Shown in pieces: positions 5,632-59,124 of a stretch of DNA of 64,000 nucleotides. Within the stretch, counting starts at the first letter, position 1; each line of letters starts with the position of its first letter. This DNA comes from Microbacterium pseudoresistens (GTDB lineage Bacteria > Actinomycetota > Actinomycetes > Actinomycetales > Microbacteriaceae). The position numbers were made by a program, and so were the translations under genes. Where the stretch lies: assembly GCF_013409745.1 (NCBI RefSeq), contig NZ_JACCBH010000001.1:930001-994000 (forward strand), in the 5' to 3' direction. Under the pieces are notes generated by a model, which was not told the origin of the DNA, did no database searches, and saw nothing but the letters and a program-made list of their open reading frames with translations.

Positions 5632-5675
5632 GGGCGCTCCTTCACGGTGCGGAGGTCACGGAGGGGAGGATGCTT

Positions 5676-5699
5676 TGGTAAGCCTGCCCTAACTTACCA
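5676..5699 (-). promoter_or_regulatory. Candidate DtxR/IdeR iron-box operator
   Basis: Two perfect 7-base arms, TGGTAAG and CTTACCA, are separated by 10 bases containing TTAGG. Read on the minus strand, one half (GTAAGTTAG) matches seven of nine positions of the TTAGGTTAG half of the DtxR consensus; the other half matches poorly. It lies 45-68 bases upstream of the binding-protein start, where a repressor would block transcription of the siderophore operon. The site call is inference from position and symmetry. Confidence 0.6.
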
Positions 5700-5791
5700 G
5701 ATGTTCGTGCTTGTCAAAGTCGCGGCACGACGAGCGGGTGGGTGACGTCGTCGCGGAGCGCCTCCCGCGAACAGGATGAGAGGATCGGGGC

Positions 5792-6355
5792 GTGCTCACG
5801 GAGACTGCCGACACGCTTGCCCTCACGGCGGATACGGGCCGCGGCGCGCCCAGCCGACGCCTGCTCGCGGGTCTCGGAATCGGGAGCGCAGCGATCGGCG
5901 CAGCACTGCTGGCGTGGTGCGTCTGGCGACTTGTCGACGGCATCGCCCCCGCCGCCGCGGTCGGCGCGGTCGCGGGACTCGCGCTGCTCGCGGTCGCCGG
6001 CGCCTGCCTCACCGTCGTGCAGACGCTGCAGCGCACCGAGCGCAACGGGCTCATCCTGGCGGTCGAACCCGGCCGGGTCGTCACGCCCGGCGGCCCGATC
6101 CCCGCATCCGCCCTGCGCCGCATCCGCCTGCGCAGCCGCCGCTTCGCCCTCCGCACGCGGCACCCCGTGACGGCGGAGTGGGAGGCGCGAACGGGCACGG
6201 GAACGCACCGCACGATCGTGTTCGAGCGCACGGACGGCGCCGTCGAACGCGTGCACGCGGCCGTCTTCGCCACCGACGACGAGTTCGCCCGCGTCGTCCG
6301 CGCCGTGCTGCGCTTCGCCGAAGCGCACACCATCCCCGTCCAGCGCGGTCGCTGA
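5792..6355 (+). CDS. Two-span membrane protein of unknown function
   Basis: A 187-residue protein that I do not recognise. After about 25 polar residues there are two hydrophobic spans (about 25-48 and 53-75) joined by a short loop. A soluble C-terminal part of about 110 residues follows, rich in Arg, Val and Thr with alternating beta-like patterning (RTIVFERTDGAVERVHAAVF). Layout and composition resemble small actinobacterial proteins with a PH-like (bPH) domain behind two membrane helices, but no diagnostic motif is visible. It starts at a GTG and stands alone, divergent from the iron operon. Confidence 0.65.
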   Translation: MLTETADTLALTADTGRGAPSRRLLAGLGIGSAAIGAALLAWCVWRLVDGIAPAAAVGAVAGLALLAVAGACLTVVQTLQRTERNGLILAVEPGRVVTPGGPIPASALRRIRLRSRRFALRTRHPVTAEWEARTGTGTHRTIVFERTDGAVERVHAAVFATDDEFARVVRAVLRFAEAHTIPVQRGR

Positions 6356-6504
6356 GGGCACCTCGCACCACACAGCGGTATATGCGCGCGTCCGGGTGGA
6401 ACTGCACAAGTGTGGCCGGACGCACATATTCTGACCCGCCGCGCACCTGAGAGTGTTCATCTCAACGACCCACAGACGAGCAATGTTGACGCGAGGAAAC
6501 ACCC

Positions 6505-7770
6505 ATGACCAACGCATCCGTCGCGCCGGGATCGACTTCCCGTAAGACACACGATGCTGAGCCCGGCGCCCTTGACGGCGTCGTGGTCATCGATATCACA
6601 AGAGTCGTAGCGGGGCCGTACTGCTCGATGATTCTTGCCGATCTCGGTGCCACCGTGATCAAAGTCGAGCATCCGGACGAGCCCGACTACACGCGGACCT
6701 TCCCACCGATGCTGCAAGGCGACGGGGCCAGAAGCATGAGCGGCTTTTTCGCGCAGTACAACAGGAACAAGCTGGGCGTCACCATCAACCTTCGTCACGA
6801 CGACGGAAAGGCGCTCCTGCGCAGACTCGTCGAATCCGCGCATGTCCTGGTCGAGAACTTTCGTCCGGGCACCATGGACAAGCTCGGCGTTGGCTATGAA
6901 ACCCTCCGACAGATCAACCCGCAGCTCGTCTATGCGGCGCTCAGCGGATTCGGACAGCACGGTCCGTACCGCACCAAGCCGGCCTATGACAACAGCGCCC
7001 AGGCCACGGGCGGCCTGTGGTCGATGAACGGCCCCCTCGGGGGTCCTCCCGTGCGCGTGGGGACCATCATCGGCGATCTCGCCGCGAGTCTTTATGGCGT
7101 CGTCGGCGTGCTCGCCGCCTTGCGCCATGCGGAACGGACCGGAGAAGGACAGCTCGTCGACATCTCGCAGCAGGACTCCGTGCTCACGCTGACGGAGAAC
7201 GCCGTCGTCAACTACTCCGCGACCGGCGAAGTTGCCATGCCCCTCGGAAACCAGCATCCGTTCGTCCGCCCCTACGAGCTGTTCCCCTGCGCCGACGGCT
7301 TCGTCTTCTTCGGTGGGTACACCGACAAGTTCTGGAAGCTCTCGTGCGAGATCTTCGGCGCACCGAGCGACTTCGCGGACAATCCCGATCTGCACAGCAT
7401 GGCGGTCCGATTCTCCGACGAGGCGTATCGGGATCGGGTCCGTCCTCTCATCGAGGGCTGGTTTCGTTCACGCACGAAGGCTGAGCTGGAGAACCTCGCC
7501 GGGGATCACGTTCCACTCAGCGCGGTGAAGAACATCAGCGAGGTCGTCGCCGATCCGCAGATCGCCGCGCGCGACATGGTGATCGAAACAGAATACGAAG
7601 GCTTCGGATCGCTTCAGACCTTCGGCTCACCCATCAAACTGACGCGCACGCCGCCCCGGGTGCGCGGTCTCGCTCCGCACACCGGTGCGCACACCGAGAC
7701 CGTGCTCAGAGATCTTCTCGGTCTCACGCAGGACGAGATCGCGGATCTTCGCCGCGGCGGGACGATCTGA
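6505..7770 (+). CDS. CaiB/BaiF (class III) CoA transferase
   Basis: This 421-residue cytosolic enzyme moves CoA between acyl-CoA and a free carboxylic acid. Class III landmarks are VVIDITRVVAGPYCSMILADLGA near the N-terminus (about 27-50), VLVENFRPGTMDKLG, and the conserved catalytic-Asp region GDLAASLYGVVGVLAALRHA followed by TGEGQLVDISQQD. The start has GAGGAAA eight bases upstream. It is the first gene of a three-gene plus-strand unit, and its stop overlaps the crotonase start by one base (TGATG). The partner amidase operon suggests that the acid it activates comes from an amide. Which acid cannot be read from sequence; carnitine-like and short unsaturated acids are possible. Confidence 0.92.
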   Translation: MTNASVAPGSTSRKTHDAEPGALDGVVVIDITRVVAGPYCSMILADLGATVIKVEHPDEPDYTRTFPPMLQGDGARSMSGFFAQYNRNKLGVTINLRHDDGKALLRRLVESAHVLVENFRPGTMDKLGVGYETLRQINPQLVYAALSGFGQHGPYRTKPAYDNSAQATGGLWSMNGPLGGPPVRVGTIIGDLAASLYGVVGVLAALRHAERTGEGQLVDISQQDSVLTLTENAVVNYSATGEVAMPLGNQHPFVRPYELFPCADGFVFFGGYTDKFWKLSCEIFGAPSDFADNPDLHSMAVRFSDEAYRDRVRPLIEGWFRSRTKAELENLAGDHVPLSAVKNISEVVADPQIAARDMVIETEYEGFGSLQTFGSPIKLTRTPPRVRGLAPHTGAHTETVLRDLLGLTQDEIADLRRGGTI

Positions 7771-8549
7771 TGGCGAAGGTGGTCCTCGAGCGCCTCGAGG
7801 GGGTCGGGGTGATCACGATCACGCGACCGGAGAAGCTGAACTCTCTGACTCTCTCGATGTACGACCAACTCGGAGAAGCCTTTGCTGAAGTCGCCGAGGA
7901 TCCCGGGATCGGCGTCGCAATCTTGACCGGCTCGGGCACGAGGGCGTTCTGCGTCGGAGCAGATCTCGGTGAGTCGATACCGGCGCTCACCGAGGGACGA
8001 TTCGACATCAGCCGATGGGACGCCGCGCACCAGAAGCACTCCCGGCTCGACAAGCCGGTCATCGCGGCGGTGAATGGTCTCTGCCTCGGTGGCGGGTTCG
8101 AGATCGTGCTCTCCACCGACATCCGGATCGCGTCGGAAGACGCATCGTTCGGCCTTCCCGAGACCGGTGTCGGCGTCGTACCCGCTGGAGGAACACTCGT
8201 CCGTCTCGTCCGGCAGATACCGTACGCATTCGCGATGGACCTGATGATGCGGGGAACGCGGATCGATGCACGCACCGCCGAACGCTACGGGATCGTCAAC
8301 CAGGTGGTCCCGGCTACCGACCTTCTCGACGTTGCATGGGATATCGCCGGTGATCTTCTGACCCGCAGCAGAACGGCTGTCGCAACCGTGAAGGCGGCGG
8401 TCCGCGAGCTCATCGACCTCCCTTACGACGAAGCGTTCCGACGCGAGGCTCTCCTCGGGCAAGGGGCGTTCACGAGCGATGATGCGAGGGAGGGCCTCAC
8501 CGCATTCGCCGAGCGGAGAGCACCGGTCTTCCCCTCGCAGCAGGCCTAG
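7770..8549 (+). CDS. Enoyl-CoA hydratase/isomerase (crotonase) family protein
   Basis: A 259-residue crotonase-fold enzyme, probably adding water to the double bond of the CoA ester made by the preceding transferase. The oxyanion-hole segments are AFCVGADLGE and NGLCLGGGFE. The first catalytic Glu region (FGLPETGVGVVPAGGT) is present, but the place of the second catalytic Glu (usually AME) reads AMD. Hydratase activity on a simple enoyl-CoA is therefore not certain; isomerase or CaiD-like chemistry is possible. It is coupled to the CoA transferase gene by a one-base overlap, and the PucR gene starts two bases after its stop. Confidence 0.9.
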   Translation: MAKVVLERLEGVGVITITRPEKLNSLTLSMYDQLGEAFAEVAEDPGIGVAILTGSGTRAFCVGADLGESIPALTEGRFDISRWDAAHQKHSRLDKPVIAAVNGLCLGGGFEIVLSTDIRIASEDASFGLPETGVGVVPAGGTLVRLVRQIPYAFAMDLMMRGTRIDARTAERYGIVNQVVPATDLLDVAWDIAGDLLTRSRTAVATVKAAVRELIDLPYDEAFRREALLGQGAFTSDDAREGLTAFAERRAPVFPSQQA

Positions 8550-8550
8550 A

Positions 8551-10602
8551 ATGCCGACATCGCTCCCGAACGGTCCGGAGCGCTGGTCGAACGGGGCTCT
8601 GAGCATGGCGGGGATGACAAAGAAGTCGACCGCCGATATGTCGGACCTGCCGACGATCGCGAAAGAGATCCTCGCCGCGGCCCGGGCAGAACCGGGCCAG
8701 GTGCCGAGTTCGCTGCGCCTCTTCCTCGATCGCGCGGGAACCGGAACCGACGAGGTTGCCGCTCTGCTCGCCGCCGTCCACGAATCGCAGATCCTCGGAG
8801 CGCGCCTGAGGCGAAGGACCGCCGAACTGGAGGCGCTGTTCTCGACCGCACGAGAGCTTGTCCGCCTGCAGGATGTGAATGATGTGCTCCGCCGTCTCGT
8901 GCAGCGCGCGCACGACCTGATGGGCACCGACGTCACCTATCTTTCCGAAGTCGAGGTCGGGACCCAGGACCTCATCGTCCGGCACTCCGTCGGCACGGTC
9001 ACCCCGGAGTTCCGCGATCTCCTCGTTCCCGCCGGTTACGGGCTCGCGAGCCGCGTCGTCCAGACCAGGGAACCGGTCTGGGTTTCGAGGTACGAGACGA
9101 TGCAGCTCGCGCGTCGCGATTCGCGGATCGACGCCGCCGTGGTCGCCGAAGGACTCGTGTCCTTTCTCGGTGTGCCTCTCGCCGTGGGTGACGAGGTGCT
9201 CGGCGCACTCTTCGCTTGCAACCGCTTCCCTCATGAGTCCTCGCCGGACGAAGTACTGTTGCTGTCCGCCTTCGCAGACCATGCGGCCGCGGTGCTCCAC
9301 AGTGTGCGCGTGCTCGCGAGCGCCGAGACGGCGACGTTGCGCGCGGAGGAGGCCTATCAAGAGCTGGAGAAGCACCTCTCGGCGACCGAGCTCGCCGGCG
9401 CGGTCCACGAGGAACTGACATCCGCGGTGATCTCCGGCGGAACCGTCGTGGACATCGTCGAAACGCTGGCCCGAAGCCTCGACACGCGAGTGTGGGCGAT
9501 TGATGAGAACGGCAGAGCTCTGCATCTGTCAGAGGAAGCGGACCTGCCTTCGCGCACCGCTCTGGACTCGGCGCTGGCGCAGAGCAGATCGAGCGGTCAC
9601 GTGGCGAGCGTCCACTCCGATGATCGCGGATGGTTCGTCGTGGCGATCCTGGGCGCCGATCGGGTACTTGGGGCGATCGTCGCCGAGGAACAGGAGGGGC
9701 TTCCAGACGATATCGCCCGTCGCACGCTGGAGCGGGCAGCCCACGTCGCCGCGCTTGTCTCGTTCAAACAAGAGGCCGTCTCGGCCATTCGAGCCGAGCG
9801 CCGAGCGCGGTGGCTCTTGATGACGTTGGATGGACGCGATCCATCCCCCGACGGAGGAGATCCTCTGGTCCCCTCTCCGAAGCTCCTCACCGGCTGCGCT
9901 GTGGTGAGCATCGGCGGGAGCCGAGGAACGGAGGCGTCTGCCATCGCGGAACGAGCGGTGGGGGACACAGGTTTCGTCGCATTGCACCGCGACGACAGGA
10001 TCATCGTCGCCTGGACGATTCCCGATGTGTTGGACTCCACAGAGCGACTGCGCAGAGTGCTGGCTGACAATCTCCGTGAGCCGCAGGTCACCGCGGTCGC
10101 CTGTGTACGGGACGTCGCTCCGAACGAGCTGCCGGAGATCGTCGACCGCGCTTCGCGGGATCTGAGCTTCCTCCCCGCGCTGGGCGTGACGGGGACCACT
10201 GTGTCGTCCGATGCCTTCGCCCCGTATCATGTGCTGTCGCCGAGCGATCCGGAGACGGTCGGTCGCTTCATCGATGGCCTCCTCGGCAACGTCATCGCGT
10301 GGGACAACCACCGCGACGCGCGCCTGTTCGAGACTCTTCTGGCCTACTTCGAGGAAGGAGAGAACCGCTCCGTCGTCGCCGCGTCCCTCCACATCCACAA
10401 GAACACCGTTCAGCAGCGGTTGGAGCGGATCCAAGCGCTGCTGAACGGTGAACTATCCGATCCCGAGTTCCGCTTCCGCCTCCAGGCAGCAGTCCGTCTG
10501 GAGCATCTGCGACGCACCCTCCGGGCTGGGACGACGGCGGCGTCGAACGCCGAGACCGTCCCTGCCCGTCACCGCAGCCGGCGACCGATCACTCAGGAAT
10601 AA
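8551..10602 (+). CDS. PucR-family transcriptional regulator with N-terminal GAF domain
   Basis: A 683-residue regulator. Residues about 90-250 form a GAF sensor domain (LFSTARELVRLQDVNDVLRRL then FLGVPLAVGDEVLGALFACNR). The middle resembles the GGDEF-like region of CdaR/PucR proteins, and the C-terminus holds the PucR helix-turn-helix (YFEEGENRSVVAASLHIHKNTVQQRLERI, about 600-630). The chosen ATG lies two bases after the crotonase stop; a later ATG at 8605 is possible. It probably senses the substrate or an intermediate of the amide pathway and controls its own operon and the convergent one. Its end overlaps the end of the convergent small gene by 10 bases. Confidence 0.9.
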   Translation: MPTSLPNGPERWSNGALSMAGMTKKSTADMSDLPTIAKEILAAARAEPGQVPSSLRLFLDRAGTGTDEVAALLAAVHESQILGARLRRRTAELEALFSTARELVRLQDVNDVLRRLVQRAHDLMGTDVTYLSEVEVGTQDLIVRHSVGTVTPEFRDLLVPAGYGLASRVVQTREPVWVSRYETMQLARRDSRIDAAVVAEGLVSFLGVPLAVGDEVLGALFACNRFPHESSPDEVLLLSAFADHAAAVLHSVRVLASAETATLRAEEAYQELEKHLSATELAGAVHEELTSAVISGGTVVDIVETLARSLDTRVWAIDENGRALHLSEEADLPSRTALDSALAQSRSSGHVASVHSDDRGWFVVAILGADRVLGAIVAEEQEGLPDDIARRTLERAAHVAALVSFKQEAVSAIRAERRARWLLMTLDGRDPSPDGGDPLVPSPKLLTGCAVVSIGGSRGTEASAIAERAVGDTGFVALHRDDRIIVAWTIPDVLDSTERLRRVLADNLREPQVTAVACVRDVAPNELPEIVDRASRDLSFLPALGVTGTTVSSDAFAPYHVLSPSDPETVGRFIDGLLGNVIAWDNHRDARLFETLLAYFEEGENRSVVAASLHIHKNTVQQRLERIQALLNGELSDPEFRFRLQAAVRLEHLRRTLRAGTTAASNAETVPARHRSRRPITQE

Positions 10603-46574: not shown

Positions 46575-46979
46575 CTAATCCGACGCAGGCGGCCGCAAGA
46601 GCTCGATGACCTGCTCAATGTGTTTCGCCATGTCAAGGTCGGGATCGAGGAGCCAGAGCGGTTGCAGCCCGTCGGCCAGGGCATGCAGCGTGCGGACGAT
46701 CCACTCCGCCGACAGGTCGTCGCGCAGCACTCCCTCGCGCTGCGCTTTCTCGACCCAGCCGACCGAGGCGGACTCCATGCGGTCGGTGCGTTCGAGGAAG
46801 AAGTCGCGCGCCGGATGCTCGGGCTCTCCCACTTCGATAGCGAGTTGTGCATACAGTCTCACGAGAGGCACTCGTGCACCCCGGTCATAGGCGTCGCGCA
46901 CGCCGGCGAACGCGTCGAAGATCCGCTTCTGGGAGACGTTACCCCGAGGCGAGGGGGCAGGCGGAGACCATGTGGTCAA
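46575..46979 (-). pseudogene. TetR-family regulator lacking its DNA-binding domain
   Basis: The 134-residue frame matches only the C-terminal ligand domain of a TetR protein (AFAGVRDAYDRG, VRLYAQLAIEVGEPEHPARDFF, AEWIVRTLHALADGLQPLWLLDPD). The N-terminal helix-turn-helix, about 80-100 residues, is missing. The first 18 residues (MTTWSPPAPSPRGNV) fit nothing. The break lies immediately at the end of the defence-island operon, whose last stop overlaps this ATG by chance or by fusion. Confidence 0.75.
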
Positions 46980-47707
46980 GAAGCGGCAAAGAGTACGTCG
47001 ATCAACTCACGCAGTTCGTCGTCGGCCAACGATCCGAGGTCTGTCACCCTGGACTCGAACTGCACACCCTTGAGCCCAGCCCGAACAATGTCGCGCCGCG
47101 GCAAGTCCTTCTGCGTAGATGCGATCTGCTCGCTGATGAACCTCGCGAGCCGATGGTCTGAGGAGAGGTTGCGGTCGATGAGACCGACGAGATCATCTTC
47201 GAAGAGTTCAACCTCCGGATCATACAGGAGGGGGCCAAGAACCACAGAGCGCAGGTATGCCCGATAGAACACATTTCGACGCCCCGCAAGAAACCGATCG
47301 GGGGACAAGCGGCCGTGCTTGTCGAGCGGAAATCGTCGAACCGCCAGATCTGGGAGAATCGCGATCGTGAGATACGACCACATGCCAGGATGTGCTGCTT
47401 GCCCTCGGAGATCGTCCGAGAACCACAGCGCAAGGCTCTCCCCGGCGAGCAGGTCGAACTTGCGATCGTAGTTGCGCTGTCCGGTGGCCACCGTCGACAG
47501 TTGCTCACGCATCTCGTTGCGAAGAGCCGCGAGCTCCATCACGGTCACTGTACCGGCGCCGCCTACTCCGAAGTACGCCCGCGGGTGGTGCGTGCCATGG
47601 GTGAAGCTTGGCGGCGGCTGCCCCATTGCAACTGCATTCTCGAGTTCCGTGAACGCCCGGCGCGCATCATCCGTTGAGAAGCGTGGGTAGATCGCACCCA
47701 TCGTCAC
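46976..47707 (-). CDS. DUF6339-like protein of the GHKL/Z1 defence operon
   Basis: A 243-residue soluble protein. Recalled family pattern (DUF6339): an opening GAIYPRFSTDDARRAFTEL, a middle LTIAILPDLAVRRFP and a closing DDELRELIDVLFAAS. No catalytic motif is visible and most of the C-terminal two thirds is predicted helical. It is the last gene of the defence operon and overlaps its predecessor by GTGA (47704-47707). Family membership is from memory, not from a search. Its role in the system is unknown. Confidence 0.7.
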   Translation of the reverse strand: MTMGAIYPRFSTDDARRAFTELENAVAMGQPPPSFTHGTHHPRAYFGVGGAGTVTVMELAALRNEMREQLSTVATGQRNYDRKFDLLAGESLALWFSDDLRGQAAHPGMWSYLTIAILPDLAVRRFPLDKHGRLSPDRFLAGRRNVFYRAYLRSVVLGPLLYDPEVELFEDDLVGLIDRNLSSDHRLARFISEQIASTQKDLPRRDIVRAGLKGVQFESRVTDLGSLADDELRELIDVLFAAS

Positions 47708-48600
47708 GCCACCTCCGTCATGAAGCTACTGGCCTCCCGAGCCCGATCGATGAGGTTCATGGCGTCCTCGCTGGCGATTCGCAGTGCGAGTTCGAGGTCG
47801 AATCCGAGCACGGACGCGACGTGAGAACAGAACGCCGCGAAGGACGTGACGTCCGTTTCGGCGCATTCAGCGACGAAAGTCGGGGAGTATCCATCGCGTA
47901 CGGCGGCCAATTGAAAGAGCGCCGCCGAATAGATATCGGCCTGAATCGCCTGATAGATCCACCGTGGTGCCGATCCGTCGAGGATTGTCTCAGCCGCGGC
48001 CAGATCGATGTTCACGTAGAGCCTCATCGCCGAGCTAAGCCCCCACGCAGGCTCGGCATCGTGAGCAACATCCACTTGCCAGGGGACTCGCCGCCGCCCG
48101 GTTTCGGCAAAGCTCACTGCTGAGGTCGGGAACGCTTCACCGAGGCGCTCGAACGGTATCTTGATCGTTGCGGGCAAGCTCCAAAGGCGCGCCGCGTGGT
48201 GTACGCCGCGAGCAGGGTCTGGATGCCCGGTACGTCCGGGGCCGACCACTGCAACATCCAGCAGTGCCTCGACGGCGACCGCATCCCCGTCGACCTTGAT
48301 TTCCACCTCCGCCGACCAGGTCTGCCCGTCGTGGGCGAAAGGGGACTCGCCTCGCCATTTCTCTCTGGCGACCAGACAAGTCACGTCACCTACGAGCACA
48401 ACACTCTCATCCACGGGAATGCCGCACTCATCCCAGAACTCCGGCGCGAGCTCGGCACTGACTCGGATCACGAGGTCTTGCCCAGGTTCCCATTCATCTG
48501 GAAGTTCGTTCAGCTCGACTTCGGGATTCACGCACCGAACCCGCACCGTGACAGAGCGCTGCGCAGGAACTCGGTACGGGCGCGACTCATTAGCTGGCAT
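47704..48600 (-). CDS. Unknown two-part protein of the GHKL/Z1 defence operon
   Basis: A 298-residue protein that I cannot assign. Residues about 10-160 alternate hydrophobic and polar residues as in beta sandwiches (SVTVRVRCVNPEVEL, DLVIRVSAEL, AVEALLDVAVVG). Residues about 190-298 look helical (IYQAIQADIYSAALFQLAAV, FAAFCSHVASVLGF). No nuclease or ATPase motif is visible, so it may be a binding or bridging subunit. The ATG at 48600 is chosen; one at 48615 is possible. It overlaps the GHKL stop by 11 bases. Confidence 0.72.
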   Translation of the reverse strand: MPANESRPYRVPAQRSVTVRVRCVNPEVELNELPDEWEPGQDLVIRVSAELAPEFWDECGIPVDESVVLVGDVTCLVAREKWRGESPFAHDGQTWSAEVEIKVDGDAVAVEALLDVAVVGPGRTGHPDPARGVHHAARLWSLPATIKIPFERLGEAFPTSAVSFAETGRRRVPWQVDVAHDAEPAWGLSSAMRLYVNIDLAAAETILDGSAPRWIYQAIQADIYSAALFQLAAVRDGYSPTFVAECAETDVTSFAAFCSHVASVLGFDLELALRIASEDAMNLIDRAREASSFMTEVA

Positions 48601-50497
48601 TGTCGACGCTCGCATTCATCTCGATGAGCAACGCGCGCCGAGAGGGTCCGACAACAGTGACGGTCTGAGCCAGATTGCCTTTGGCCCGCGCCTTCCCACC
48701 CCCTAGATCGCTTGCGCGATCCCAGACAGACAGCAGGTCGTTGGCAGGAAGCCTCATACGGGCGCCGTCGTCGCCGACAACGGAGACAGCGACATCGACG
48801 ATGAACTCGCCCTCTCCGTCTACAAGAAAGCCGATCTGCTGCTGTTGTCGACCGTCCGAGAAGGTCCTCACGAGGCGGGGAGCTTCGACTGAGATCAGCT
48901 GTCTGCGTGAACTACGGCGACCCGCCGCTGGCGGGGTTCGAGGCTTCGATGAGGGCTTCTCTTCCGGCTTCGATGGGAGCAGCATCCCGAGCATGCGGGC
49001 AACCGTGCCGACGCCGCGCCGCGCTGAGGCGCCGGGATGTGCCACGTCCGCCGGCTCCGGAACGACGAAGGTCTCCCGGAGAATCGCGCGAACCTTGTTG
49101 CGCATGGCACGGATCACGAGCCCTGTCTCACCGCCGGCACTGCTCACCCACATGTCGTGGGCAGGCGGCTCGGCGTCAGCAAAGGTGCGGTCCCACTCAC
49201 GCGCCGACTTGAATACGGCGACCCAATCGAAGATCGGGGATGCCGTGTGGTCCGACCAATCATCCGTGGCAACAACGAGCTCTGCCTGGTCACGCATCAT
49301 CGCGATTCGTTGTACCGAGTCGTCGTCCCACACGGGGTCCAGATCGTCCTCGTCGAGCCGTGCTTCCAAAGCCTTCAATCTCTTTACAACCGCGAGGTGC
49401 CCGATCGTTTTCCGGTTGCGTACCACGGCGTGCACCTCGACCGGCAATCCAGATGGTGCAATCACGGGCGCTTCATCGTCGCGCACACGAGACCGAATCG
49501 CGTTGAGTCCCGCACCCCAGGACGCCAACGCCCCAGGGGTGTCGCCAACCAGATCGACGTTCTGTTCGTGCACCCGCAGCTCGAGCGGCATGGGCGGACG
49601 AGCATGGCCAGGCGCCACGATCAGTTTGGGCCACAAGTGCAGTCGCATGGCTCTTCGTGCTTCTCGGGCGAATTCGTGCTCGAGGGTCGTTGGATCCCCG
49701 TTTCTCAGCTCAGCGGAGTCGGGCTCATCGAATTCTCCGTTGCGCGGCACGGAGATGAGCGGATCCAGGATCAACAATGAGGTCCCGGTCTCGTCCCCCT
49801 CGAAGTGCCGGGCGAAGAAACGTTCGCCGTACGCCTGAGCGACGTCACCGATCAATGGTGCAACCAGCCCGTCCTCGCCGGCTCCCCACCAGTGTCGACC
49901 CGTGAACTGCTTGCCTTCCGAAACGTAGGACTCGTGGAATGCCGAAACGACGAGCCGATATTCGAGGCCATCCCGACCATCCCGGCAGCGGCTCCAGAAG
50001 AGGACAGTTCCTTGAGCGCTGAACGCGTATGCCGCCGTCTTTCCGAATCCGTACGTTCCACCACCCTTGCCGTCATCGCGCGGGACACCCACCTTGAGAA
50101 TGAGGTCTTGAAAATTGCACGGCTCGCCGGGAGACGTCGGCGAGAGATCGGTCGGTCCATCGAGCCCGCTCGTCCCTCGGTCGAATACTTCGAGAACATG
50201 CAAGTTGTTGACACTGGGAACGCGGTGCCTCCCCGATCGCTGTCGCCCTGTTGCGAACAGCCGGTCGAGATCTGCTCGAAGACGAAAATCGACACGGCGC
50301 AGATGCGCACCGTATAGCGGATGGCTGCCGTCGACGCGCGCATCCCAACTGTTCTGAGCTGTCTCGCGGATCAAGACCTCAAGCGGCGACAAATCCGTCC
50401 GTCCGAGCAATCGGTCTCCGCCAGTACCGTCCATGTCACCTGCTTGGAACTGCTTGGGAAACCAGAGAAGCGGTTCGATGATCTTGTCCACGCTCAC
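48590..50497 (-). CDS. MORC-like GHKL ATPase of a restriction-type defence system
   Basis: A 635-residue GHKL ATPase. The N box is LIRETAQNSWDAR (Glu45, Asn49), the first G box FDRGTSG (106-111) and the second GGGTYGFGKTAAYAFS (145-160), as in prokaryotic MORC relatives rather than histidine kinases. A basic Pro/Ser linker (about 505-530) precedes a beta-rich C-terminal domain. These ATPases are known beside Z1 helicases and nucleases in predicted restriction systems. It is expected to undergo ATP-driven dimerisation on DNA. Four-base overlap with the nuclease gene (50494-50497). Confidence 0.85.
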   Translation of the reverse strand: MSVDKIIEPLLWFPKQFQAGDMDGTGGDRLLGRTDLSPLEVLIRETAQNSWDARVDGSHPLYGAHLRRVDFRLRADLDRLFATGRQRSGRHRVPSVNNLHVLEVFDRGTSGLDGPTDLSPTSPGEPCNFQDLILKVGVPRDDGKGGGTYGFGKTAAYAFSAQGTVLFWSRCRDGRDGLEYRLVVSAFHESYVSEGKQFTGRHWWGAGEDGLVAPLIGDVAQAYGERFFARHFEGDETGTSLLILDPLISVPRNGEFDEPDSAELRNGDPTTLEHEFAREARRAMRLHLWPKLIVAPGHARPPMPLELRVHEQNVDLVGDTPGALASWGAGLNAIRSRVRDDEAPVIAPSGLPVEVHAVVRNRKTIGHLAVVKRLKALEARLDEDDLDPVWDDDSVQRIAMMRDQAELVVATDDWSDHTASPIFDWVAVFKSAREWDRTFADAEPPAHDMWVSSAGGETGLVIRAMRNKVRAILRETFVVPEPADVAHPGASARRGVGTVARMLGMLLPSKPEEKPSSKPRTPPAAGRRSSRRQLISVEAPRLVRTFSDGRQQQQIGFLVDGEGEFIVDVAVSVVGDDGARMRLPANDLLSVWDRASDLGGGKARAKGNLAQTVTVVGPSRRALLIEMNASVDNAS

Positions 50498-51465
50498 AGC
50501 GACTCCAACACGCGGCGCTGCTCGTCCTCCGGGAGCGCATCAGGACATGCGTCAAGGAGGAGCTGATAACTAAGGCGATCGACTCCCTTCAACGACGCAG
50601 AGTCCAGTCGGGAGGCCCGCAAACCGGGGAACTCGTCGGACACGAGGTGCAGGCGACGTTCCGTCACCACGAGTCGAAGAGAATCATCGAGAACGAGCGG
50701 CTCCTCGTCGTCCACGCGTTCCCGAAGCAAGTCGCTGCTCGCACCGGCCGCGCTTAACTCCCGGACGATATCGGCGATGGTTTCGCCTTCGTCGGATTCT
50801 TCCACGCGCAACGACAGGAGGTGCAATTCATGCCCGCTCGGGGGATCCAATTGGTAAGCGCCGTGGATCGTAACTTTCGGACTTCCCGTGCCACCGTATG
50901 TCTTCACTTCGAGCGCGTTCAGCTGGGAGAAATCGTGGCGATGCCCCTGGGGCCCTCTCCACAAGGAAACCGCGTCGGTCCCCCGTAGCCGAACGACCTC
51001 ACGAAGTACGACGAGTTCGCCGAACAAGCCGATCAATGCCTGGCGGCTCAAGCCTGCTTTCCCAGATTGAAGAGCTCGATGCCAATCATCGACGACCTTG
51101 GAGACTTCGAGATATACGGTGCCATGCTTCTCGTCGACGCGATCGAGGACCTCGCCGACGAGCGACAGGAAAGTCGATCGCAGGTCGGGGTCGGGGCATT
51201 CAATCTTGATCCGTTCTCGCGGAGCATCAGACGACTGCGGAATCCAACTGATCGGCAATGCGCCTCCGACCTTCGGCTCTATCCGCGGGAGTTCCTCCGG
51301 ACGCTCCACCACAAAGGACAGCCGGTCGGCATAGTCGAGTACCAGGAGAGCCTCACGCATGTGCCAGTCAGGCCCAAGCCGTCGCGCTTTGCTGACTTCG
51401 AGCGTCGGCGACTCCTGCAGTAGGGCCCGCAGCGCCTGTTCCACCCGCGAATGGCCGTTGCTCAC
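50494..51465 (-). CDS. PD-(D/E)XK nuclease (DUF4420 type)
   Basis: A 323-residue protein with the restriction-endonuclease core: Glu150 in GLFGELVVLREV, Asp178 in HDFSQ and Glu186-Val-Lys188 in LNALEVKTYGG. These fit the E...D...ExK arrangement of the DUF4420 family. It is probably the cutting subunit of the system. The ATG overlaps the Z1 stop by four bases (51462-51465), and its own end overlaps the ATPase gene. Confidence 0.88.
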   Translation of the reverse strand: MSNGHSRVEQALRALLQESPTLEVSKARRLGPDWHMREALLVLDYADRLSFVVERPEELPRIEPKVGGALPISWIPQSSDAPRERIKIECPDPDLRSTFLSLVGEVLDRVDEKHGTVYLEVSKVVDDWHRALQSGKAGLSRQALIGLFGELVVLREVVRLRGTDAVSLWRGPQGHRHDFSQLNALEVKTYGGTGSPKVTIHGAYQLDPPSGHELHLLSLRVEESDEGETIADIVRELSAAGASSDLLRERVDDEEPLVLDDSLRLVVTERRLHLVSDEFPGLRASRLDSASLKGVDRLSYQLLLDACPDALPEDEQRRVLESL

Positions 51466-54188
51466 GACTCACCCTCCCCAGCTGCGAAGTCGGCCTCATC
51501 GTCGATGATCTCGGTGTCTCCGTCCTCGTTCTCGTCATCACCGGAATCGAAGATCGATCGGAGCGTAACTGCGTAGTGATCACCGTCCCGTTCGAAAGCG
51601 GCCGGTGGGAAGACGACTGCGACACCGATCGGATGACCGGGTGCTTCCATCGCACCTCGAGTCTTCATCGATGAAGAACTGGGTTGCGAGTTCTTCCCGA
51701 CGGCGTACAGGATGACCAGGCCGTTGTCTGGGCGGACTGCACGGCGGAAACGCTTCACAGCTTGTGCATCGCTTGTGTTGAGCGAATCGAAGTCCGACCG
51801 GATCGTATCGTCGAGACGCCCATTCCGACCAAGGATGGTGAGATCAGCCGTCGAGTCCGCGCTCGACATCAGCGCGCGTATGTTCACGATGTCGGCTCCC
51901 GCCTCCATGGCCTCGCGGAATCGAGTCTTGTCCCACTCGATGCTCAGAGGCGTGCGGCTAACCACATTCACAACGATGCCCGGGCCGTACTCGAACTGGG
52001 CTCCGTTGCTCGCAGGACCGGATACAAGGACCAGATCCCAGGACTTTCCTTCTCCGTGTTCATCCGTCCACTTCTTCATCGCCTCCGGTTGCAACGCGAC
52101 GTCGACCGAGAACACGCCGTACTTGTCGAGAAACGCGATGAGATCTGCGTGCGAGAGGCCCTCGAAGAGATGTGATGCGGCAACGCCTCCCGACGCGCCC
52201 CCGACCGAGTCGAGGGGCGAACCCTGTGCAGCCGCTCGACCAACCAGGTCCCGTACCGCCTGCTGCTGGCGGTCAACACCCGCTTGCGAACGGTCGAGGT
52301 AAATGGTCTGTCGACGGTTCCCTCCGAGACCCGTGTGCACGAGGTCGGCGAAGTCCATCTTGCCTGCACCGGTGATCTGCAACCGTCCCTTGTGCCCGCG
52401 CACGGGAATCGCGATGTCCGCCGGCGTCTTCCCCTCGCTGACCAGCATGGCGATGTCCTCGCGGAGCTCTCGCTCAACGAGAGCGAGGTGGGCGTAATCG
52501 TCGAGCATCCCAGGCGCCGCCCAGACGCGGGCCAGGTCTCGATAATGCGGGCGGAACCCGAACCATCGTCCCATTTGCAGAAGTGTGTCGTACGCGTTCG
52601 AGGTTCGGAGGAAGAACGACACCACGAGGCCCTCGAGTGTCAGCCCGCGGGACAGCGTCCCACCCCCGATCGCTATGACGGTCTGCGGGTCGTCGTCCGG
52701 GTACGACACGCGGTTGTTCGACGTTCCGTTGTCGACCCGCACCTGCACGCGGGAGAGCAAGTCGTCGACCACGTCCCAGATCTCGAACCACTCGGGCAGG
52801 ACTTCGCCATCGCGGAGCTCAGACGCGCGATCGATCTCGTCATCGAAGACTGTCCGGAATTCCGGCTGCCGACGATCGGTCTCCAACGCTATGTCCTTGA
52901 GAAAGTCGACGACGATGTCACGAAGACGATCATGCGCGTCGACCCGATGCGAGGTATGAAGAAGCATCGATGAGTGTTGCGAAGTCCCGGTACGAATCTG
53001 TCGGATCGCAGTCGCGATCAGGAACCACTTGATAGCAACGCTGAGAGAGCAGGTGATGCTCGGATCATAGTCCGTCAGGTCCCGTCCGGTCGGCGCGAGA
53101 ATCGCGGCTTCCTCATCTGGAACGGTGCGGGCAAGGGCATCCGGCGAGACGCCTTCTTCATCATCGACTCCGGACGTGTCGAAGTATGTGTCCGCGCCCA
53201 TGTACCCGGTCGGGCGAGGCAGCACCATCGCGAAGTCATCGGGGTACAGATCGCTCTCGTCGTTCGGATTCGTGAAGATAGTGGCGAACGGCGTCGCCGT
53301 GTAGGCGACATAGGTTCCCGTCCTCACCTCTGACCAGATATCGCGAATGCGTTGATTGATCGTTGAAACAAGGTTCTTGGCACCCTTGGTGTTCGGCGTC
53401 GCCTGATCCGACTCGTCGTCGATGATGAGCACCGCGCGCGACAGGAGCATCTGCGGGTCTTTCTTCGAAATGTCCTTCAGATAGGCGAGGACGTTCGCGA
53501 GTCGCCTCTCATTCTTCTTGACGACCATGATGATCGTGTTCGCCTGATTTCCGACCGGGCTGACCGGGTTGCTCGGCGCAATGTCGGAATCCACACTGGT
53601 CAGCGGGTACCACGCGACGCCGCCGTCCTTGAGCTCCCGCAACTGAAGGTCTCCGTCCAGCCGGGACTGCGTTTGCGCTCGAAGGTTCGAGTGCATCCCC
53701 GCGAGGACGATCACGATGCGGTACCCAGCGTCGACGGCTTTCGCGACGAGCCCGGCATAGTTCGCTGTCTTGCCGGACTGCACGTAGCCGACGACGAGCC
53801 CCTTTCGCTTGTCTCCTCGCTCCAGCGGGTTCGCACACTGCGACAGGATCTGGGACGTCGATTCGTCGACGCTGTCAGCCGCAACTGCAGGTAGGCGCGA
53901 GGCAAGCTTTACGCGATAGACGGGCCAGATTCCCTTCAAGCTCTTCGGACCGCTGTACCAGGCGATTCTCTTCCGGTCTCCGATGAGGCTACTGGCGGCG
54001 ACAAGATCTTCGATCCTCTCGCGCTCGGCCGCGAGATGGGTTCGATAGGCATCTGGGAAGTCCGGATCCATAGCCGCAAAGTTGCTGAGGAGCTCAGCAT
54101 CTCGCGTTTCAGGATCCCGTCCGGCTTGTTTCGCCTGCAAGGCTTCGAACATCGCCTTCAGCTCATCGAACCCAAACCCTGACATCAT
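51462..54188 (-). CDS. Z1-domain superfamily 2 helicase
   Basis: A 908-residue protein. Walker A is VVGYVQSGKTANYAGL (134-141), Walker B VLIIDDESDQ (257-262) and motif III AYTATPFA (297-302). The Z1 domain follows with GGGTLSRGLTLEGL and LLQMGRWFGFRPHYRDL. Z1 helicases accompany MORC-like ATPases and PD-(D/E)XK proteins and probably translocate along DNA. The ATG is doubled (54188 or 54185) behind GCGGGGGA. It begins 155 bases after the methyltransferase stop; that gap holds no gene. Confidence 0.9.
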   Translation of the reverse strand: MMSGFGFDELKAMFEALQAKQAGRDPETRDAELLSNFAAMDPDFPDAYRTHLAAERERIEDLVAASSLIGDRKRIAWYSGPKSLKGIWPVYRVKLASRLPAVAADSVDESTSQILSQCANPLERGDKRKGLVVGYVQSGKTANYAGLVAKAVDAGYRIVIVLAGMHSNLRAQTQSRLDGDLQLRELKDGGVAWYPLTSVDSDIAPSNPVSPVGNQANTIIMVVKKNERRLANVLAYLKDISKKDPQMLLSRAVLIIDDESDQATPNTKGAKNLVSTINQRIRDIWSEVRTGTYVAYTATPFATIFTNPNDESDLYPDDFAMVLPRPTGYMGADTYFDTSGVDDEEGVSPDALARTVPDEEAAILAPTGRDLTDYDPSITCSLSVAIKWFLIATAIRQIRTGTSQHSSMLLHTSHRVDAHDRLRDIVVDFLKDIALETDRRQPEFRTVFDDEIDRASELRDGEVLPEWFEIWDVVDDLLSRVQVRVDNGTSNNRVSYPDDDPQTVIAIGGGTLSRGLTLEGLVVSFFLRTSNAYDTLLQMGRWFGFRPHYRDLARVWAAPGMLDDYAHLALVERELREDIAMLVSEGKTPADIAIPVRGHKGRLQITGAGKMDFADLVHTGLGGNRRQTIYLDRSQAGVDRQQQAVRDLVGRAAAQGSPLDSVGGASGGVAASHLFEGLSHADLIAFLDKYGVFSVDVALQPEAMKKWTDEHGEGKSWDLVLVSGPASNGAQFEYGPGIVVNVVSRTPLSIEWDKTRFREAMEAGADIVNIRALMSSADSTADLTILGRNGRLDDTIRSDFDSLNTSDAQAVKRFRRAVRPDNGLVILYAVGKNSQPSSSSMKTRGAMEAPGHPIGVAVVFPPAAFERDGDHYAVTLRSIFDSGDDENEDGDTEIIDDEADFAAGEGES

Positions 54189-54343
54189 GTCCCCCGCTCA
54201 GATCATCGAGCGCTGATCTAGGCGCCCACGGCTACATTCATATCCGATTGCTCCGACATCGCGCGGGACGCCACTCATCGCGCTTTCGACGACCTGGGCA
54301 TCTGAGAACGACCCGCCGTCTACCCGTTCCTCCGAGCCTCCTC

Positions 54344-55534
54344 CTAGTTGACGGCTTGCTCCCGGCGCGACGTGAGCATCTCCCGCAGATCGATATTCGG
54401 TTCCACCGAGGGGTACTCAACGCCCGCGAACGACTTGAACAGCGCCACGAAGATCGCTTCCGCCCCCTTCACCGGAACAGCCATTCCGACCTGCTTCCGA
54501 ACGCTGTCCTTACGCCCGTGGAACACGAACTCGTCAGGAAACGACTGCAGTCGTGCCCGCTCACGGTTCGTGAGGGCTCGATTCTGCACCCAGTGGTACA
54601 TGTGCGATCCGCCACCGCCAGCGCCCGTCACGGTGTAGGCAGGCTTACCCGGTTCGAGCCTCTTGTACGTCGTGCTGATGGTCGTCCGCGTCTTGATCTT
54701 GAGGTGCTCGGGCATGATCTCGAGTGCGCGCGGGGAAAAAGCGTGCTCCCCGGGGAGGATATAGCTCAATCGCTCCACCACGTTGTCCGACTGCCGGGTG
54801 TACTCATGGTTCGGAGCACCGACCATGATCCGCGGTTCGCTCAACGCCTTCTCCGCGGAGACGTCTTGCCCGGCATAGATCTCCGGAGACGGAACGCGGA
54901 ACACTGTGTAGAGATCGCTGCGAACCCCGACGATCACGATTCGCTGTCGACGCTGAGGCACACCGTACTCGTCAAAGGAATAGAGGTGAGGGACGAGGCG
55001 ATAGCGCAAACCGGGCGCCGGCTCCTGCAGGTGCGCAAGGATCTGCTTGAACGCTTCCCCTTCATTGGCTCCACGTAGCCCGGAGACGTTCTCCGCGACG
55101 AACCACTTGGGGCGCTTAGTGGCGAGGACCTTCACCCCATAGGTGTACAGCGGACCGTACTCGCCGTCGAGCCCCTTCCACTCGCCTACCAAGCTGTAGT
55201 CATTACACGGGAAACCGAACGCGAAGCCGTCGACGGGACCAAGTGCGTCGATGTTCAGATCGTGCACGTTCTGATGAACGGTTCCGCCACCGGCCTCGGG
55301 CAACTCGTCAGCAGATTCGACGACCACAGCATGATCACCGTACGCGGGAACGAGAATATTGTTGCGATAAGTCATGCAGGTATCGCGGTCGTAGTCATTC
55401 GCCCACGCGTGCTTGAGCTCGACGCCTTCGATGGTCGCCGCCGCCCGGCGAGCACCTAGCGCCATACCACCAGGCCCACTGAACAGCTCGCCCATCCGGA
55501 AATGAAGATCAGACAAAGCTCGCTCCTCGATCAT
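54344..55534 (-). CDS. C5-cytosine DNA methyltransferase
   Basis: A 396-residue enzyme transferring a methyl group from S-adenosylmethionine to C5 of cytosine. Motif I is FSGPGGMALG (18-27), motif IV GFPCNDYS (Cys110), motif VI ENV (Glu148), motif VIII QRRQRI (194-199) and motif X GMAVP. The Pro-Cys-Asn form replaces the common Pro-Cys-Gln. It presumably marks the host DNA, protecting it from the neighbouring nuclease system. Divergent from the Vsr gene across a 136-base AT-richer gap. Confidence 0.93.
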   Translation of the reverse strand: MIEERALSDLHFRMGELFSGPGGMALGARRAAATIEGVELKHAWANDYDRDTCMTYRNNILVPAYGDHAVVVESADELPEAGGGTVHQNVHDLNIDALGPVDGFAFGFPCNDYSLVGEWKGLDGEYGPLYTYGVKVLATKRPKWFVAENVSGLRGANEGEAFKQILAHLQEPAPGLRYRLVPHLYSFDEYGVPQRRQRIVIVGVRSDLYTVFRVPSPEIYAGQDVSAEKALSEPRIMVGAPNHEYTRQSDNVVERLSYILPGEHAFSPRALEIMPEHLKIKTRTTISTTYKRLEPGKPAYTVTGAGGGGSHMYHWVQNRALTNRERARLQSFPDEFVFHGRKDSVRKQVGMAVPVKGAEAIFVALFKSFAGVEYPSVEPNIDLREMLTSRREQAVN

Positions 55535-55670
55535 CGAACTCTCCTAAGCAGCCTACCCTGGTTCCGCGGTTGCAGTAGCTCGACCGCGCCGGGGTGGCTC
55601 TTCGTATATTAGTTCGAACGTCAGACATTGCGGCACAACTCGCTTCCGAACCGCGCCGTATGCTCATGAG
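55535..55670. promoter_or_regulatory. Divergent promoter gap between methyltransferase and Vsr genes
   Basis: The gap is visibly richer in A and T than the genes around it (TCGTATATTAGTTCG at about 55600). It must hold promoters for the minus-strand methyltransferase and the plus-strand Vsr gene. No clear operator is seen. Confidence 0.35.
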
Positions 55671-56081
55671 ATGTCCTGGGCGAGCACCGAAGGCTCTCGT
55701 CGGTCGATGAGAGCCAACCGACGTCGCGACACGAAGCCTGAGCTGGCTATCCGCTCGCCCCTTCACGCAGCTGGGCTCCGCTACCGTGTGGACTTCGCAC
55801 CGCTCGGCGGAAGACGCCGCGCAGATATCGTGTTCACGCGGTGGCGAGTCGCAGTGTTCGTCGACGGATGCTTCTGGCACAGGTGCCCCCTTCACGCGAC
55901 CTATCCCAAGCGCAATTGCGACTACTGGTTGCCCAAGCTCCAACGAAACATCGACCGCGATCGGGAAACCGACGAACAACTGAGGTCCTCTGGCTGGATC
56001 GTCGTCCGGTGCTGGGAGCACGACCCTCCAGTCGAAGTCGCGAAGAGAATCGAACACCTCGTCCGCAGGCTGCGAACGTAA
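55671..56081 (+). CDS. vsr: Very short patch repair endonuclease (Vsr)
   Basis: A 136-residue nuclease that nicks next to T:G mismatches arising when 5-methylcytosine deaminates. The family core is present: RRRDTKPELAIR, Asp52 in GRRRADIVF, VAVFVDGCFWHRCPLH (His70, His75) and NIDRDRETDEQL. This is the standard companion of C5-methyltransferases and indicates that the adjacent methylase really makes 5mC. It starts with an ATG and no strong ribosome site. Confidence 0.93.
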   Translation: MSWASTEGSRRSMRANRRRDTKPELAIRSPLHAAGLRYRVDFAPLGGRRRADIVFTRWRVAVFVDGCFWHRCPLHATYPKRNCDYWLPKLQRNIDRDRETDEQLRSSGWIVVRCWEHDPPVEVAKRIEHLVRRLRT

Positions 56082-56406: not shown

Positions 56407-56760
56407 ATGCCCTCCCCTCAGACTCTCGCAGCGCTCCGCGCCTTCGTCGAAGCGCGCGAGTGGGACCAGTTCCACAGCCCCGAGAACCTGGCGAAGAGCA
56501 TCTCGATCGAGGCCGCGGAACTTCTCGAGCTCTTCCAGTGGACGCCTGATGCGGACCGGGCCCGCGTGGAGGAAGAGCTCGCCGACGTCGTCACGTACTG
56601 CATCCATCTCGCGAATGCGCTCGGCGTCGACCTCGACGACATCGTGATGCGCAAGCTGGCATCCACCGAGCAGAAGTATCCGGTTCGCCTCGCCAAAGGG
56701 CGCGCCACGAAGTACACGGAACTCGATGAGGTCGCAGACGGCGGCGAGGAAGAAGAATGA
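56407..56760 (+). CDS. MazG-like nucleotide pyrophosphohydrolase
   Basis: A 117-residue all-helical enzyme of the MazG/dUTPase superfamily. The metal-binding acid pattern is EAAELLELFQW followed by VEEELADVVTYC (ExxE...ExxD). It may cleave a nucleoside triphosphate to the monophosphate and pyrophosphate. Its stop overlaps the next start (ATGA, 56757-56760). Coupling to a nuclease-helicase hints at a defence or nucleotide-depletion role. Confidence 0.88.
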   Translation: MPSPQTLAALRAFVEAREWDQFHSPENLAKSISIEAAELLELFQWTPDADRARVEEELADVVTYCIHLANALGVDLDDIVMRKLASTEQKYPVRLAKGRATKYTELDEVADGGEEEE

Positions 56761-58487
56761 CCGGGTTCAGCATCCAGCGCCTGCCGTTCGAGAAGACGGC
56801 GGTGGATGCCTGGGCACGCGACGACGCACGCCACCCGAACTGGCCGGTCGTCTACGTCATCGACAGCTCGGGCACCAGGCGCAAGCTCTACGTCGGCGAG
56901 ACGGTGAGCACCGCGACTCGCATGCGCCAGCACCTCACCGGCTCCAAGAAGAACGAGGGCCTCGACTCGATCCGCGTAGTGATCGACGAACGGTTCAACA
57001 AGTCGGTGTGCCTGGATCTCGAATCTCACCTCATCCGCTGGTTCCACGGCGACGGGCGGTACGAGCTGCTCAACGGCAACGACGGGCTCACCGACGCCCA
57101 GTACTACGACCGCGCCCTATATCGCGAGTCGTTCCGCGACGTGTTCGAGGCCCTGCGCGCCGAGGGACTGTTCTCGCGCAGCATCCCGCAGATCGAGAAC
57201 TCCGATCTGTTCAAGCTCTCGCCGTTCAAGGCGCTCAACGACGACCAGGCCATCGCCATCACCGACGTCATCGAGGGCCTGCTCGCCGACATGGAGGATG
57301 CCGACAGGCGCTCGACGCTCGTCGTTCAGGGCTCGCCGGGTACGGGCAAGACGATCATCGCGATCTTCCTCATGAAGCTCCTCGCCGACATCCGCGACCA
57401 TCAGGATCATGACGACGTGCAGCCCGACTCGATCTTCGCCGACTTCTTCGTGCCCGAGAACCGCGAACTGCTCGCGGATCTGAGAATGGCGCTCGTCATC
57501 CCGCAGCAATCGCTGCGCGAGTCGGTGAAGAAGGTGTTCACGAAGACGCCGCGCCTCGACCCATCGATGGTGCTCACGCCGTTCCAAGTGGGGGAGTCGG
57601 ATGCCGCGTTCGACTTCATCCTCGTCGATGAGACCCACCGACTCGGGCAGCGCGCGAATCAGGCGTCGGGGGTTCAGAACCGCAAGTTCCGCGACATCAA
57701 CATCGCGCTGTTCGGCGAGGACGATCCGCGGTACACCCAGCTCGACTGGATCAAGGCGCGCAGCCGACACCAGCTGCTGCTAGTTGACGGCGAGCAGAGC
57801 GTGCGTCCGCACGATCTCTCGCCCGCCATCCGCACGCGCGAGGTGCGCGCAGCCCGCGATCAGCATCGCCAGTACCGGCTCACGACGCAGATGAGGGTTC
57901 GTGCCGGCGCGGACTATGTCGAGTACGTGCGGGCCCTGCTGCGGGATGAGCGGCCTGTTCGCCCCGATCTCGGCGACTACGACCTTCGGATGTTCGACGA
58001 CCTGGGCGAGATGCAGGCGGCGATCCGGGCGAGGGATGCCGAGGTCGGCCTCTCGCGCCTCGTCGCCGGGTACGCGTGGGACTGGGTGTCCCGCCGCGAT
58101 CCTCAGGCTTTCGACATCACGCTCGACGGCATCCGCCTGCGGTGGAACAGCACTGACAAGGACTGGATCAACGCGCCCGGCTCGCTCGACGAAGTCGGTT
58201 CGATCCACACCGTACAGGGCTACGACCTCAACTATGCCGGCGTGATCATCGGTCCCGACCTGCGCGTCTCACCGGCCACCGGGCACATCGTCACCGACTG
58301 GGACGCGTACCGTGACAAGAAGGGCAAGGAGCGCACCGGGCATCTCGCGGCCTCGTTCGGCGACGACGACCTGCTCGTATTCATCCGCAACGTCTACGGC
58401 GTGCTCCTTACGCGGGGCATGCTCGGAACGTATGTGTACGTGTGCGACCCAGAGCTGCGCGAGCGCCTGACGCGGCTGCTCGCCTGA
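56757..58487 (+). CDS. GIY-YIG nuclease fused to DUF2075 P-loop helicase-like domain
   Basis: A 576-residue protein. Residues about 30-115 are a GIY-YIG-like domain (VVYVIDSSG, KLYVGETVSTATRMRQH, Glu89 in LESHLIRWF). Residues about 155-576 form a DUF2075 ATPase with Walker A GSPGTGKT (192-199), Walker B DFILVDETHRLG and late motifs GSIHTVQGYDLNYAGVIIGPDL and NVYGVLLTRGM. DUF2075 proteins are found in phage-defence contexts. The gene is translationally coupled to the MazG-like gene. Confidence 0.88.
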   Translation: MTGFSIQRLPFEKTAVDAWARDDARHPNWPVVYVIDSSGTRRKLYVGETVSTATRMRQHLTGSKKNEGLDSIRVVIDERFNKSVCLDLESHLIRWFHGDGRYELLNGNDGLTDAQYYDRALYRESFRDVFEALRAEGLFSRSIPQIENSDLFKLSPFKALNDDQAIAITDVIEGLLADMEDADRRSTLVVQGSPGTGKTIIAIFLMKLLADIRDHQDHDDVQPDSIFADFFVPENRELLADLRMALVIPQQSLRESVKKVFTKTPRLDPSMVLTPFQVGESDAAFDFILVDETHRLGQRANQASGVQNRKFRDINIALFGEDDPRYTQLDWIKARSRHQLLLVDGEQSVRPHDLSPAIRTREVRAARDQHRQYRLTTQMRVRAGADYVEYVRALLRDERPVRPDLGDYDLRMFDDLGEMQAAIRARDAEVGLSRLVAGYAWDWVSRRDPQAFDITLDGIRLRWNSTDKDWINAPGSLDEVGSIHTVQGYDLNYAGVIIGPDLRVSPATGHIVTDWDAYRDKKGKERTGHLAASFGDDDLLVFIRNVYGVLLTRGMLGTYVYVCDPELRERLTRLLA

Positions 58488-58611: not shown

Positions 58612-59124
58612 ATGGCGAACGAGACGAACATCACCGTGGTGGGCAACCTCACCGGCGACCCCGAGCTGCGCTTTCTGCAGTCCGGCATCGCCGTGGCGAG
58701 CTTCACGATCGCGAGCACACCGCGTACGTTCGACCGTCAGGCGAACGAGTGGAAAGACGGTGAGGCGCTGTTCATGCGCTGCTCCGCGTGGCGCGAGCTG
58801 GGCGAGAACGCCGCAGGATCGCTGACCAAGGGTATGCGCGTGATGGCGACAGGCAAGCTGCAACAGCGCAGCTACCAGGATCGCGAAGGCAACAACCGCA
58901 CGAGCATCGAGCTGACCGTCGACGAAATCGGCCCGTCGCTGCGCTTCGCGACGGCGCAGGTCACACGCGCGCAACGCGGGGGCGGGCAGTCCGGTGCGCC
59001 GCAGGCCCAGCAAGGCGCACCCGTCGCGGCCGGAGTACCCGCTGGCGGAGCCGACACCGGCGATGCCTGGGCGACCCCCGGCGGCGGCTGGGCCCCGGAC
59101 GAGGGCGCGGACACACCGTTCTGA
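58612..59124 (+). CDS. ssb: Single-stranded DNA-binding protein
   Basis: A 170-residue SSB. The OB fold (about 1-112) starts [20 protein letters not shown] and includes [19 protein letters not shown] Gly/Gln/Ala-rich linker ends in the acidic tail DEGADTPF used for partner binding (the normal tip is DDDIPF, here DTPF). It could be the chromosomal paralogue or an accessory copy; a replication operon context is absent. The ATG follows GGAGTGAAC. Confidence 0.93.

Follow-up and report, generated by a model that had tools for sequence, protein, structure and literature searches.

A paraMORC2-type cassette of Microbacterium pseudoresistens with a cytosine methyltransferase and two small subunits, predicted to act as a restriction-type system

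A 64,000-nucleotide stretch of the Microbacterium pseudoresistens genome (NCBI RefSeq assembly GCF_013409745.1, contig NZ_JACCBH010000001.1, positions 930,001 to 994,000 of the forward strand), here called the window, carries a compact set of six genes, Z, N, G, a, b and M, next to a gene for a Vsr-type endonuclease, V (Table 1). The same set is common to many loci. The initial annotation of the locus holds in part, and its interpretation is likewise supported in part. Related loci are numbered with the prefix L, and counts out of 80 refer to the best 80 of them (L002–L081).

Table 1. Genes of the cassette and adjoining features, with positions in the window.
Feature	Position	Strand	Remarks
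b, 241- or 243-aa all-helical subunit, DUF6339 family (PF19866)	46976..47707	-	many conserved arginines
a, 298-aa subunit	47704..48600	-	predicted Ig-like beta-sandwich (about 14-153) and C-terminal helices (203-291)
G, GHKL ATPase of paraMORC2 type, 635 aa	48590..50497	-	ETAQNSWDA (45), DRGTSGLDG (106), GGGTYGFGKT (145), ETGTS (236), EPPAH (443)
N, PD-(D/E)XK nuclease, DUF4420, 323 aa	50494..51465	-	residues E150, D178, E186-x-K188
Cassette gene between N and M	51462..54188	-	
M, C5-cytosine DNA methyltransferase, 396 aa	54344..55534	-	motifs FPCND (108), ENV (148), QRR (194), MAVPV (351)
V, Vsr-type T:G mismatch endonuclease, 136 aa	55671..56081	+	divergent from M
TetR-type regulator, C-terminal part	46575..46979	-	adjoins stop of b; perhaps the island's left edge

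Z is a superfamily 2 (SF2) helicase with the motif DThhQXuRhFG, and it matched the NCBIfam model MzaC with 329.6 bits, below the equivalog cut-off of 1500. N matched Pfam DUF4420 (2.7e-35) and PADLOC MzaD (1.5e-9), and its score against NCBIfam MzaD (51.6 bits) likewise fell below the equivalog cut-off of 420. The initial annotation had called a PD-(D/E)XK nuclease here, and the DUF4420 match bears this out together with the E-D-ExK residues, which all 70 of the 70 aligned rows retain. N was present in all 80 best loci; cassettes with Z, G, a and b and no detectable DUF4420 nuclease were seen at L127, L130 and L131.

The ATPase had been described as MORC-like. Its GHKL character stands, as four ATP-binding motifs could be read by eye in G (the first four in Table 1), and Pfam HATPase models gave no match. 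Membership of the MORC family proper is not supported: the MORC motif GhXhhpXXRhl is absent from G and from 74 of 76 Type I proteins whereas it is present in 34 of 36 MORC open reading frames (ORFs), and G matched PADLOC PDC-M33A (3.1e-10), not MzaB. Conversely, EPPxH was found in all 76 Type I proteins and in none of the 36 MORC ORFs; E443, P444, P445 and H447 of G are kept in 76 of 76 aligned rows. G is of the paraMORC2 type.

We then considered the two small subunits, which the initial annotation had left without a function and whose absence from most related operons would have spoken against its reading. Subunit a was present in 78 of the 80 loci. A family search succeeded for b, a DUF6339 (PF19866) protein, and not for a, for which no family was found in Pfam, PADLOC or NCBIfam; in profile comparisons a is homologous to the gene that stands in the middle of PDC-M33-like triads. 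AlphaFold2 models of the two had a mean predicted local distance difference test (pLDDT) of 91.6 and a predicted template modelling score (pTM) of 0.60 for a, which consists of an immunoglobulin (Ig)-like sandwich followed by helices, and a mean pLDDT of 90.0 and a pTM of 0.85 for the all-helical b. Fold searches of the PDB returned no convincing relative of either. A precomputed PF19866.5 tag is carried by all 69 proteins listed, including P0031, a 100% copy of window b, while PF19866.4, run locally, missed window b and exceeded its cut-off with all five b-type relatives tested, among them L031 (23.6 versus 23.2 bits), L034, L061 and L121. PADLOC PDC-M33C was similarly matched by DUF6339 relatives of b and not by window b itself.

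Window b is not basic overall (29 R+K, 33 D+E), and R125, R138, R144, R179 and R209 are kept in 57–61 of 61 rows. The b proteins of L031, L034, L121 and L126 have longer C-terminal extensions, and in 16 ORFs (15 distinct) b runs on into a C5-methyltransferase fold; 14 of these lie within the best 80 loci, all of them in Streptomyces records. The fused fold has a recognisable glycine-rich motif I, but PCQ/PCN is replaced (GLPR-type) and the catalytic Cys is gone in 16 of 16, whereas, among the 75 remaining methyltransferase ORFs of the 80 loci that reach 300 aa, 74 have PC[QN]. A separate methyltransferase ORF that does have PC[QN] is close by in 15 of the 16 fusion stretches, and the exception, L059, stops at a contig edge. 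Because of these dead-methyltransferase fusions and the conserved arginines, we infer that b may form the end of the complex that faces the DNA target. C5-methyltransferase folds lacking the catalytic Cys also occur as genes of their own, beside one that has it (L143, 11392-12396; L144, 7985-8971).

On a modular reading, a and b would be fixed partners of the ATP-driven G, and the three genes together would form a portable module. Two of the PDC-M33-like triads have the GHKL within an ORF of ~1200 aa (L245, 11156-14749; L249, 11031-14627), and the ORF of L245 also matches sigma-70 regions 2-4 and a helix-turn-helix (HTH); MzaA is described as a sigma factor in PMC9523054.

The methylase and the divergent Vsr of the initial annotation were both confirmed. 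M matched Pfam DNA_methylase (4.9e-60), NCBIfam dcm (148.1 bits, cut-off 100.65) and, in the PDB, M.HaeIII and M.HhaI, and it has the motifs given in Table 1; V, on the plus strand, matched NCBIfam vsr (131 bits, cut-off 97.85), Pfam Vsr (1.5e-18) and E. coli Vsr (1cw0, 7.8e-18). We asked how closely M follows the rest of the cassette by comparing pairwise identities across 52 loci, including the window, that have all six proteins. Among Z, N, G, a and b these identities were intercorrelated (Spearman 0.54–0.81), whereas those of M correlated with each of the five at only 0.24–0.38. Some similar cassettes have M proteins near the median pair identity of 0.285 (L022/L025, 0.29; L011/L021, 0.34; L016/L033, 0.27), and in other pairs M is as alike as the core or more so (L054/L069, 0.95; L003/L004, 0.79; L002/window, 0.76). 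Since close cassettes may differ in M while others keep it, M is swapped sometimes but not always.

The six-gene set probably tags the bacterium's own DNA and turns against foreign DNA that lacks the mark. The loose tie of M to the core, its varying position and strand among loci and the six of the 80 stretches in which no M was found (of which L018, L032 and L051 are clipped contigs and L015 is clipped upstream) would also suit a defence independent of methylation, in which Z, N, G, a and b sense invading DNA or replication intermediates in a Mza-like, possibly abortive manner, and M and Vsr are a modification module of their own, which is exchanged freely and happens to share the island. Mza-type loci such as L112 indeed pair the same motor and nuclease with MORC and AIPR (the AIPR match is 3.2e-98, and the MORC protein matches MzaB at 2.4e-100). 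We consider this unlikely, though the strongest of the alternatives, as 74 of the 80 stretches and 13 of the 15 stretches with triads have M, b is itself fused to methyltransferase folds, and a methyltransferase of 620 aa or more coincides with an extra MORC gene in 13 of 16 loci versus 1 of 57 (Fisher 8.7e-11, kinship ignored; 73 of the 80 loci counted). By this last co-occurrence, GHKL proteins and methyltransferases track each other. Of the 80 loci, 15 have the extra MORC gene, L045 and L047 among them.

Eukaryotic MORCs are reported to compact DNA (PMC8277788), and a GHKL clamp with a and b might by analogy coat or loop incoming DNA, entrapping or silencing it instead of cutting it, with N as an auxiliary; this is rather improbable, as selection on the nuclease best explains why N is never missing from the best loci and why its E-D-ExK residues are intact. 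That the island is decayed or silent in this strain is very improbable even though a truncated TetR gene adjoins it and its GC is below that of the remaining window, because all cassette genes are full length with intact motifs and L002 and L008 keep the set at 54–76% identity to the window per gene.

The lower GC agrees with the initial annotation. The TetR remnant matched only weak TetR_C models in Pfam and aligns to residues ~102-199 of the open frames that two relatives have, 200 and 198 aa long; the N-terminal half of the gene was not found in the window. Just past Vsr, a MazG-like gene and a GIY-YIG/SLFN-g3 helicase gene (56407-58487, plus strand, 4-nt overlap, GC 64.1 and 65.4%) resemble a separate defence-type pair. 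An SSB-type ORF, named from its sequence (58612-59124), is 77% identical to another stretch of the same genome and may belong to the island. The APH and UbiB genes, which flank the region in the window 14.6 kb from each other, are separated by 3.2 kb with unchanged orientation in the genus relative L179 (about 4990-10485), possibly an island-free site.

The cassette belongs to a kind that was already predicted in 2008 and 2022, and the window locus is a new instance of it: PMC9523054 describes the six-gene Type I, and PMC5379612 a similar island. In the one open-access library searched, we found no tested mechanism for such systems and no paper on PDC-M33 or DUF6339; the literature examined mentions neither the homology of the module nor the fusions to dead methyltransferases, which does not prove them unpublished. 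Under the modular reading, the two small subunits would be obligate partners of paraMORC2, and a restriction complex that borrows its specificity from an exchangeable methyltransferase becomes a testable idea. Prokaryotic paraMORCs also gain a defined partner set, useful for the question of how GHKL clamps act on DNA.

Among known systems, CglI/NgoAVII differs from the cassette: its nuclease is a PLD-B3 R-protein, no GHKL, a or b is mentioned in the available part of PMC4267653, and none of the ten window proteins scanned has a PLD-B3 domain. The Corynebacterium diphtheriae BH8 island CDBH8_0988-0994 is similar but, in the section of PMC5379612 that covers it, has an EcoRII-like endonuclease, an HTH-fused methylase and three unclassified genes. 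The paraMORC2 operons that Iyer, Abhiman and Aravind described in 2008 share with the cassette a GHKL protein with ExxxH, an SF2 helicase with DThhQXuRhFG, a restriction endonuclease (RE)-fold protein with E-D-ExK, a C5 methylase and Vsr; the two small subunits are not described in the accessible text of PMC2292703.

The Type I putative defence system, in the excerpts of PMC9523054, has six genes with the same core, is associated with DNA repair endonucleases and is said to need further investigation of its function. Its PD-(D/E)XK nuclease and cytosine methyltransferase occur in the window cassette, and its three additional genes and repair endonuclease are paralleled, by composition alone, by G, a, b and Vsr; its text gives DUF4220 where the window has DUF4420. 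AIPR is assigned there to Type II, not Type I. From MzaABCDE, known here through PADLOC and NCBIfam models and those excerpts, the window differs in its paraMORC2 rather than MzaB/MORC-type ATPase, in its scores for MzaC and MzaD and in having neither AIPR (MzaE) nor a sigma factor (MzaA) among the ten proteins scanned. The PADLOC candidate PDC-M33 resembles the cassette in that G matches PDC-M33A, DUF6339 relatives of b, though not window b, match PDC-M33C, and a is profile-homologous to the triad middle gene. If the modular reading is right, Mza, PDC-M33 and Type I, which are listed separately, would be joined through common parts.
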